A stretch of 64,000 nt of DNA from an uncultured Bacteroidota bacterium (GTDB lineage: Bacteria > Bacteroidota > Bacteroidia > Flavobacteriales > Flavobacteriaceae), in the NCBI GenBank assembly GCA_902604715.1, contig CACLAD010000001.1:124001-188000 (forward strand), in the 5' to 3' direction. Position 1 is the first letter of the stretch. Each line of letters opens with the position of its first letter. Shown piece by piece: positions 7,960 through 47,261 of the stretch. Under the pieces are notes generated by a model, which was not told the DNA's origin, did no database searches, and saw only the letters and a list, made by a program, of their open reading frames with translations. The position numbers and the translations under genes are program-made.

Positions 7960-7973
7960 AATGATACAAAAAT

Positions 7974-8067
7974 GGCAAGCTATCTACATCACACTGCTAC
8001 AACCGAATACCTTTGCTGTGTTCCCACCCTGGAGGATTAATCAGGAGCTAGTTGTGTAGGACTTGCC
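7974..8067 (-). ncRNA. ffs: small bacterial signal recognition particle RNA (4.5S-like)
   Basis: Minus-strand read ggcaagtcctacacaactagctcctgattaatcctccagggtgggaacacagcaaaggtattcggttgtagcagtgtgatgtagatagcttgcc; terminal GGCAAG/CTTGCC pairing and SRP domain IV-like CCAGGGTGGGAACACAGCAA. Confidence 0.82.
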
Positions 8068-8149
8068 AATATAAATATACAATTAATTAGAATTAGAGAA
8101 TAATAATTTTTGACTATGTTGAAAAATATAGCTTAAATTTGGAAAAGCT

Positions 8150-39421: not shown

Positions 39422-40849
39422 ATGAATGTAAATGCTAATTCTGTGTGGTCTGACTGTCTTAAGTTCATCAAAGACAACATCCAACCCCAGGCTTACAAAA
39501 CATGGTTTGAACCAATCAAAGCAGTAAAGTTAGCAGACAAGGTTATTAGTATTGAGGTCCCAAGTAAATTCTTTTATGAGTGGCTTGAGGAACATTATGT
39601 AAAAATTTTAAAAGTTGCTCTTCAAAAAACTTTAGGTGATGACGCCAAGCTTGTTTATGTGATAAAAATGGAGAATACATTTGGTAATTCTCATGCATTC
39701 ACAGAAAAAATCCCAAGCTCAAATTCGTCGTCAATCCTAACACAAAATGCAACAACGTCTATTAATAGATCTGTACCTGAATTAAAAAATCCTTTTGTAA
39801 TTCCCGGTATTAAAAATGTCAAAGTTGAATCTCAGCTAAATCCGAATTATACATTTGAAAATTTCCTTGAAGGTGATTCAAACAGGTTAGCAAGAAATGC
39901 TGGAATTGCTGTAGCTAATAAGCCAGGTGGTACTTCTTTCAATCCATTTTTAATTTTTGGTGGTGTTGGATTAGGTAAAACACATTTAGCTAATGCAATT
40001 GGAATCGATATCAAGAAAAGCTATCCTGAAAAAACAGTCCTTTACACAACTGCTGAAAAGTTCACACAACAGTATATTGAAGCTGTAAAGAAGAACAATA
40101 GAAATGATTTTATTTATTTTTATCAAATAATAGATGTCCTAATTATTGACGATATTCAGTTTTTCTCAGGTAAGCCTGGAACACAAGATGTCTTCTTCCA
40201 TATATTCAATCATTTACATCAAAATGGTAAACAAGTAATATTAACCAGTGACAAACCGCCGGTAGATATGCAGGACATTGAACTAAGACTTCTTTCAAGA
40301 TTTAAATGGGGATTGTCGGCAGAGCTACAAAAACCTGATTTTGAAACTCGTGTTTCCATACTTAAAAATAAATTATACCGTGATGGAATTGAAATGAATG
40401 AAGAAGTCATTCATTATGTTGCAAAAAATATCAAAAGTAATGTTCGTGAATTAGAAGGAGCAATTATATCTCTTATAGCCCAGGCTTCATTTAATAGAAA
40501 GGAAATTAATCTTTCATTGGCTAAAGAAATCATTGAAAAGTTTGTAAAGAATACCAAACGTGAAGTATCAATTGATTATATCCAAAAAATAGTTTCGGAT
40601 TATTTCCAAATGGATATACCTACACTACAATCCAAAACAAGAAAAAGACATATTGTTCAAGCAAGACAATTAGCAATGTTCTTTGCAAAAAAATATACTA
40701 AAGCATCATTAGCCAGTATTGGATCTCAAATTGGGAAAAGAGACCATGCAACTGTATTACACGCTTGTAAGACAGTTGATAACCTTTCTTCGACTGATAA
40801 ACAATTCAGAAAGTTTGTAGAAGACTTAGGTAAAAAACTCTCCGTATAA
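39422..40849 (+). CDS. dnaA: chromosomal replication initiator protein DnaA
   Basis: NPFLIFGGVGLGKTHLANAIG, LIIDDIQFFSGK, KRDHATVLHACKTV. Confidence 0.97.
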   Translation: MNVNANSVWSDCLKFIKDNIQPQAYKTWFEPIKAVKLADKVISIEVPSKFFYEWLEEHYVKILKVALQKTLGDDAKLVYVIKMENTFGNSHAFTEKIPSSNSSSILTQNATTSINRSVPELKNPFVIPGIKNVKVESQLNPNYTFENFLEGDSNRLARNAGIAVANKPGGTSFNPFLIFGGVGLGKTHLANAIGIDIKKSYPEKTVLYTTAEKFTQQYIEAVKKNNRNDFIYFYQIIDVLIIDDIQFFSGKPGTQDVFFHIFNHLHQNGKQVILTSDKPPVDMQDIELRLLSRFKWGLSAELQKPDFETRVSILKNKLYRDGIEMNEEVIHYVAKNIKSNVRELEGAIISLIAQASFNRKEINLSLAKEIIEKFVKNTKREVSIDYIQKIVSDYFQMDIPTLQSKTRKRHIVQARQLAMFFAKKYTKASLASIGSQIGKRDHATVLHACKTVDNLSSTDKQFRKFVEDLGKKLSV

Positions 40850-46571: not shown

Positions 46572-46592
46572 TTTAATACTTTTTCAACAATT

Positions 46593-46633
46593 GTTAATAT
46601 CGTTGGTTTACAACAGGTTAACATCTTTTTTTT
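46593..46633 (+). terminator. candidate intrinsic terminator after rplS
   Basis: GTTAA(46593-97)..GTTG-gttta-CAAC..TTAAC(46618-22) hairpin followed by an 8-T run (46626-46633). Confidence 0.6.
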
Positions 46634-46641
46634 AAAATTTA

Positions 46642-46671
46642 TTGAAATACTCAACTAATATTATAATTTAG
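46642..46671 (+). promoter_or_regulatory. candidate Bacteroidota-type promoter for the rplS-icd intergenic RNA
   Basis: TTG (46642-44) -19 nt- TAATTTAG (46664-71), one mismatch to TAnnTTTG; identical TTG-N19 spacing to the tRNA-Lys promoter at 63371-63400. Confidence 0.5.
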
Positions 46672-47187
46672 TGTCAGGATTTGTTTGTAGTGGATCCCAC
46701 AAGGATAAACTAATCACTTTTAAGTGTAATCAAATTCAAGGACGTTCTTTAACAAATTACTTACATGGCAGCAAGGAAACTTAAAGCCTAAAGCAGAGAG
46801 AAACTAAATTTTAAAATGTGTGCCTGCACAATTTTAAAATAAAAGACTTTCTCTCAGTGTAGCTTAGCTTCACTGAGTCCTGAAGGCCTAGCCTTAAGGA
46901 GAAACCTAAGAACAACTAAAGTAACCCAGTGTGAAATTAGTAACCTGGAGTGAAATAAATGACTCAAAGGGACAATCACTTCGTACGAAATGATTAAAAG
47001 TAAGTAATTAGGAATCAAAATGTGAAAAGTTCTTAGGAGCTGAGTATCAAAACGGTTCCGAAAATAGCGAAGATGTTTGCAAGCTTATTTCCTCGGAAAA
47101 GAGCTATCCCGAAACGGAAGTAAACATACTCGATATTTAGAAAGCCGCACATAAGTAGCAATACTTTAGTGCGGCTTTCATTTTTTG
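46671..47187 (+). ncRNA. candidate ~515-nt structured non-coding RNA of unidentified family
   Basis: No ORF in the track between 46572 and 47261; promoter-like and terminator elements at the ends; long-range complementarities 46755-64/47000-09 (10 bp) and 46905-13/47029-37 (9 bp, pseudoknotted), 46796-803/46848-855 (8 bp) enclosing 46808-17/46831-40 (10 bp), and nested 3' domain 47042-47/47126-31, 47056-60/47115-19, 47064-68/47103-07. Confidence 0.65.
47141..47186 (+). terminator. strong Rho-independent terminator
   Basis: AAAGCCGCAC-ataagtagcaatacttta-GTGCGGCTTT perfect 10-bp GC-rich stem followed by a 6-T run. Confidence 0.92.
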
Positions 47188-47261
47188 ATAACTATTCTTC
47201 ATTTATTCTTTTATTTTATAGTCATTTTTTATATTTGAGACACTAACTATTCAGAAGAAAA

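Follow-up and report, generated by a model that had tools for sequence, protein, structure and literature searches.

The rplS–icd locus

A gap of 690 nt without a conserved ORF separates rplS from icd in the window, by which we mean the whole 64,000-nt stretch of DNA that was analysed. The ORFs of at least 30 aa inside this gap are just 34–54 aa long. In an alignment of the genus, most gap runs have a length that is not divisible by 3 (1 mod 3 in 84 of 106), and the longest stretches of the region that lack a stop codon switch frame within the genus. These results indicate that the region is non-coding and that no protein is conserved there, which bears out the first-pass annotation, where the interval had been called free of ORFs. 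When positions 46671–47187 were folded, the minimum free energy was −142.5 kcal/mol, compared with −105 kcal/mol for shuffled sequences (z −6.2), and 0 of 100 shuffles were as good; the fold claimed for the gap is therefore beyond chance. The evidence supports reading the rplS–icd slot as the gene for a large structured non-coding RNA with its own promoter-like element and terminator, and the comparative results below lend support to the same proposal as made in the first-pass annotation. The features of the locus are listed below.

46571: end of rplS
46593–46625, + strand: upstream array of three tandem GTTNAYAWC repeats, GTTAATATC at 46593, GTTTACAAC at 46606 and GTTAACATC at 46617 (13/11 spacing)
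46642–46671, + strand: promoter-like element TTG-N19-TAATTTAG of the Bacteroidetes −33/−7 type, with TTG at 46642–46644, 19 nt, and TAATTTAG at 46664–46671 (read from sequence)
46675–47187, + strand: RNA gene of approximately 510 nt from its predicted start (MFE z −6.2, covariation, kept in 16/21 genus genomes)
46677–46737, + strand: 5′ domain, P1 (46677–83/46731–37) enclosing two small hairpins; helices 1–3 of alignment A3
46742–46754, + strand: boxA-like element ACGTTCTTTAACA, the sole exact GTTCTTTRACA of the window
46755–47009, + strand: central domain closed by the long-range helix 46755–64/47000–09, containing hairpins, two of which end in GNRA tetraloops
46809–46840, + strand: hairpin with the invariant apex GUGUGCCUGCACAA, identical in 16/16 genus sequences
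47011–47059, + strand: 3′ hairpin GGAATC/GGTTCC (helix 17, 100% of cells paired)
47063–47137, + strand: 3′ domain helix AATAGCGAAGATGTTT/AAACATACTCGATATT with hairpins inside (helices 19–21)
47140–47186, + strand: intrinsic terminator, an apical hairpin (47140–47179, helix 22) with a GNRA loop (GTAGCAATAC; GNRA in 14/14), and a U-tract
47230–47237, + strand: separate promoter-like element TATATTTG of icd, read from sequence, with an equivalent TATATTTG or TATATTCG before icd in other genera; TANNTTTG as such is common by chance
47262 or 47265: start of icd, listed as TTG 47262; ATG 47265 (MSKIIYT...), with the TTG in frame upstream of it, is likelier

The promoter-like TTG-N19-TAATTTAG named in the first-pass annotation was confirmed by reading; nearly all members of the genus retain its −7-like TA..TTAG element, which is also conserved in other genera of the family. 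The terminator at 47140–47179 with its U-tract, which had also been proposed, was confirmed by its complementary halves and by its conservation; a simple terminator scanner missed it because the loop is longer than the scanner allows. Its counterpart in other genera is AAAGCCATgTCA...TGATATGGCTTT.

Conservation and covariation in the genus and the family

BLASTN found the RNA element in 16 of the 21 genus genomes, one copy each (one genome was matched in two pieces), and the copies are mostly full-length with 71–90% identity. All matched loci have rplS upstream, and icd follows downstream wherever the contig continues. Four of the five genomes without the element are incomplete assemblies that also lack an rplS match, and the sole rplS of the fifth is 44% identical and possibly foreign. 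Much of the central variable part is missing from the divergent members L015 and L017.

Covariation within the genus was evaluated on alignment A3 (14 sequences, RNAalifold structure, 140 pairs). In this alignment, 93.2% of cells were paired, compared with 88.1% after shuffling and 35–42% with slid partners; because the structure was derived from the same alignment, the slid control overstates the difference and the shuffle control is fairer, and the relatedness of the sequences inflates both. Changes on both sides were seen at 40 of 140 pairs against 23.3 in shuffles, and the covariation score was 0.196 against 0.106 (0 of 500 shuffles reached it), counts that are not probabilities, since the sequences are related. 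The best support falls on the hairpins at columns 102–124 and 324–346, on parts of the 3′ domain and on helix 4 (46755–64/47000–09), in which 100% of cells are paired and two pairs have changes on both sides. Little covariation was found in P1 because it is nearly invariant inside the genus; comparable helices were seen by eye in other genera. Among the helices listed in the first-pass annotation, P1, the long-range helix and the nested 3′ domain are supported, and some of the small ones are local guesses. At three hairpins, a GNRA loop is kept in 13/14, 13/14 and 14/14 genus sequences while its variable base changes; the first two lie in the central domain and the third is the terminator. This conservation by type may be a sign of tertiary contacts. 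The apex GUGUGCCUGCACAA is a candidate contact site; its CCUG could pair with a CAGG near the 5′ end.

The rplS-downstream DNA of 80 further genomes was surveyed together with 28 other loci. In 79 surveyed loci, icd is next after rplS; the gap is 400–1500 nt in approximately 69 of them, and in ten, at 110–290 nt, it is too short to hold the RNA. Most of the long gaps have in common the upstream motif, a boxA-like GTTCTTT near +220 and, approximately 300–430 nt further on, a terminator AAAGCCAT...ATGGCTTT. For 50 long-gap sequences, the window's genus included and the terminator removed, the mean MFE z was −3.4 (range −7.4 to −0.8). The gap RNA aligned well among 32 genera. Alignment A2 covers the 3′ domain in 34 genera other than that of the window, with a structure written by eye from the same alignment. 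It has 94.7% of cells paired (88.0% shuffled, 37–44% slid), changes on both sides at 30 of 52 pairs against 14.1 in shuffles, and a covariation score of 0.290 against 0.167 (0 of 500). A UACAUU loop is invariant in 31 of these 34 genera, and the GCCU apex is invariant in the window's genus. Conservation and covariation in relatives, to which the first-pass annotation had looked for a decision, were found and are strong, in the genus and across other genera.

A covariance model of the 3′ domain from the 34 genera, trained without the window's genus (R1), had matches at E ≤ 0.01 in 230 of the 400 Flavobacteriaceae genomes and in 140 of the 219 genera; these counts are approximate, because stricter filters can lose weak members and some of the weak matches may consist of the terminator alone. 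Matches of R1 on the minus strand and those of about 20–35 bits are largely the palindromic terminator and were given no weight by themselves. In an order-wide sample dominated by one family, all 18 matching genomes were Flavobacteriaceae, and R1 had no match among the sampled order genomes outside this family. No match to the RNA was found in a phage collection. A pattern scan of GTDB genomes returned 15 marine Bacteroidetes records and one Fimbriimonadales match (L045), which we rejected as chance, with no other feature of the RNA around it. R1 did not match the genomes listed for the species-rich genus g147, and in approximately ten genera icd directly follows rplS with no RNA between them, so that the RNA is dispensable in some lineages. 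In the g147 genome examined (L134), rplS and icd are 290 nt apart without an R1 match, and the genus seems to lack the RNA.

On the window, the sole R1 match (47033–47180, 22.6 bits) is gone once the terminator is removed, which indicates that the sequence-structure homology of this copy is carried by the terminator; the genus member L015 scored 31.1 bits. The window's copy and those of other genera share the slot, the array at the same place, the −7-like element, the boxA at a similar distance and the order of helices. From this synteny, array, promoter, boxA position and topology, we believe that common descent of the window's RNA and the family-wide RNA is very likely.

Upstream array, boxA-like element and known RNAs

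The array of three GTTNATA repeats also stands upstream of the RNA in other genera with the fixed 13/11 spacing; in the window, an inverted copy lies to its left, partly overlapping it. A search for the pattern GTTNAYA-N6-GTTNAYA-N4-GTTNAYA that allowed at most one mismatch placed it ahead of the RNA in 23 of 25 genomes, with essentially one occurrence per genome; two genomes had 1–2 extra one-mismatch matches elsewhere, and the reversed control pattern gave six matches in five genomes. RNA genes that have been relocated from rplS retain the array beside them. Because the array travels with the RNA away from rplS, we consider it part of the RNA gene, and it is probably a binding site for a regulator. 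This changes the reading of the terminator-like hairpin that the first-pass annotation had placed after rplS (approximately 46592–46633), which coincides with the conserved array; in other genera, a separate rplS terminator precedes the array. In the window's genus, the region may serve both as rplS terminator and as array.

Of 71 regions, 56 have GTTCTTT within their first 300 nt, and none of the 71 has it in the remainder. The boxA-like element of the RNA is similar to GTTC.T..A elements in the rRNA leaders of the family. Within its own genome the match is good: the rRNA leader has ATGTTCTTTAAAATATTG at 130 nt upstream of 16S, and AATGTTCTTTAAAATA is the form in variants of the RNA from the genus. 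In ten other genera the rRNA leaders mostly have GTTCATTRACATATTG or close variants, and the match to the element of the RNA is partial. The layout also resembles an rRNA leader with boxB–boxA–boxC antitermination, in which a 5′ hairpin is followed by a boxA-like sequence and a long-range helix closes the next domain (compare PMC10250234). However, the RNA here is not an rRNA, and its likeness to boxA is one of sequence alone (GTTCTTTA here and GTTCATTRACATATTG in most family leaders). The assignment as boxA is made by resemblance, and a role in Nus-type antitermination is plausible.

At the gathering score, the covariance models of Rfam 15, including OLE, ROOL, GOLLD and the group II intron, gave no match at the gap, and the two matches in the whole window were an SRP RNA and a tRNA (tRNA-Lys). 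At E ≤ 10, the gap gave only implausible matches (PISRT1, LhrC, algC and others, E 1.7–8.5). Twenty homologous loci had no Rfam match except the L19-Flavobacteria ribosomal leader (RF03130) upstream of rplS; this leader shares the neighbourhood, but it is a 29-nt element beside the RNA and not within it. The Rfam comparison suggested in the first-pass annotation thus produced no credible family match in the gap. Its statement that tmRNA, RNase P, SRP and group II intron signatures are missing agrees with the covariance models, none of which matched there, and the first three RNAs were located elsewhere. A separate tmRNA (RF00023) scored above the cut-off in 14 of the 21 genus genomes and a separate class A RNase P RNA gene (RF00010) in 17 of 21, this genome included in both cases; 6S-Flavo (RF01685) was also not matched in the gap and has a separate gene in 21 of 21. 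SRP RNA (RF04183) is not in the gap and is located elsewhere in the window: a small SRP RNA of the Bacteroidales type lies at 7969–8075 on the − strand (101 bits). The size and complexity of the element had been compared with those of ribozymes or other large bacterial RNAs; the large non-coding RNA stands, and in the comparison with Rfam nothing pointed to ribozyme activity.

To our knowledge, neither the rplS/icd setting nor such an upstream array occurs with OLE, ROOL or GOLLD. The RNA here resembles these three in its size, intricate fold and conserved loops, but they belong to different lineages and it has no Rfam match to any of them. Published work describes OLE, ROOL and GOLLD as bacterial RNAs of large size and intricate fold that have conserved loops and a function that is mostly open (PMC12286853, PMC10898510). 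The main text of a Flavobacterium psychrophilum transcriptome study (PMC9723704) has no mention of the RNA locus, and no prior description was found in the open-access literature. Because novelty is judged against Rfam 15 and this literature, an earlier description elsewhere is possible.

Proposed role and alternative explanations

By sequence comparison, the RNA gene is conserved, covarying, single-copy and able to exist apart from its neighbours, and we hold with high confidence that it is an independent structured RNA gene. The comparison also supports a fold at the RNA level that is under compensatory selection and comprises a 5′ hairpin domain, the boxA-like element, a long-range helix around a multi-hairpin domain, two 3′ stem domains and the terminator. 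We propose that the gene is transcribed as its own unit under the control of a DNA-binding protein at the array, and that the boxA-like element recruits NusB/S10-type antitermination, by which the long untranslated RNA would escape Rho as rRNA does. The RNA would fold compactly through GNRA-loop contacts and act in trans, most likely as a ribonucleoprotein scaffold; we put the odds of this RNP reading at about even. Taken as a whole with these steps, we think it likely that the RNA represents a family, undescribed so far and widespread in Flavobacteriaceae, of large structured RNAs that are independently transcribed and act in trans. To the fuller combination of an undescribed family across most of Flavobacteriaceae, a trans-acting RNP, rRNA-style antitermination and a dedicated regulatory site of its own, we give an even chance.

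Bacterial structured RNAs of more than 400 nt are few, and most of those known are ribozymes, translation or replication-scale machines, or puzzling large RNPs. The RNA of this study may be an unrecognised cellular RNA machine. Its novelty is that of an RNA family unrelated to any searched; there are precedents for large ornate bacterial RNAs as a general class. A single-copy RNA that is widespread in a dominant marine family and has a regulatory array of its own is a directly testable case.

An independent unit with an intrinsic terminator and invariant exposed loops, namely the GCCU apex and the UACAUU loop described above, could also be a trans-acting base-pairing regulator of the antisense sRNA type instead of an RNP scaffold. 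We consider this unlikely, because an RNA of 400–520 nt that has GNRA loops and numerous covarying helices is far more elaborate than ordinary sRNAs, and the invariant loop differs between the window's genus and other genera. In most genomes icd follows the RNA on the same strand, and in seven genomes with rplS and icd parted it is found upstream of icd, away from rplS, so that a functional link to icd is possible. This would suit a very long 5′ leader of icd, with the terminator as an attenuator and the RNA sensing a metabolite to control isocitrate dehydrogenase. We regard such a leader as decidedly improbable. The constant upstream, co-directional placement expected of a cis-regulatory leader was not seen in three genomes: in G083 and G167, the RNA is beside rplS with icd 5–6 kb off and the next ORF on the opposite strand, and in G183, the full RNA by rplS is followed by an opposite-strand gene and icd is on another contig. 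As a leader needs a downstream target, these neighbours argue against it, and together with the separate promoter-like element of icd past the terminator they favour an independent gene, not conclusively. Moreover, the terminator hairpin is nearly invariant with no conserved alternative pairing seen, and the ten or so genera mentioned above have icd without the RNA. The icd and icd-II motifs, likewise upstream of icd, are proteobacterial three-stem junctions and riboswitch candidates, and icd-II involves the ribosome binding site (PMC8632094); in contrast, the RNA here has a terminator at its end and can occur away from icd.

Compared with the independent RNA gene that we prefer, a replication origin in the slot, with the array as a cluster of DnaA boxes and the RNA incidental or a primer, appears very improbable. 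The repeats do resemble DnaA boxes (TTATTAACA, TTATCAACA), the array is essentially single-copy, an ORF reading as dnaA lies at 39422–40849, approximately 6 kb from the RNA gene, and the cumulative GC skew of the window is lowest near 44 kb. However, in G247, the one closed genome on which we rejected this reading, coarse sampling puts the switches of the skew near 1.1 and 3.1 Mb and not at the RNA (0.138 Mb), which has no dnaA match closer than approximately 100 kb; moreover, the covariation concerns base pairs of the RNA along hundreds of nucleotides. That the RNA is a strongly diverged tmRNA, RNase P RNA, 6S RNA, SRP RNA or intron is scarcely credible: its size range would fit and nothing else does, whereas the canonical tmRNA, RNase P, 6S-Flavo and SRP RNAs sit elsewhere in the genus and no gathering-level Rfam match was obtained.

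Some further details of placement were noted. G083 and G167 have two large ORFs between the RNA and icd at the same spot, in the same order and on the strand opposite to the RNA (L240 1046–6117 and L241 1094–6185). In G183, a truncated 3′ remnant of the RNA before icd (L216 1921–2110, G183:C91) marks a breakpoint within the RNA gene, from a rearrangement or a duplication. In several closed genomes, the RNA lies approximately 10–17 kb from coordinate 1.
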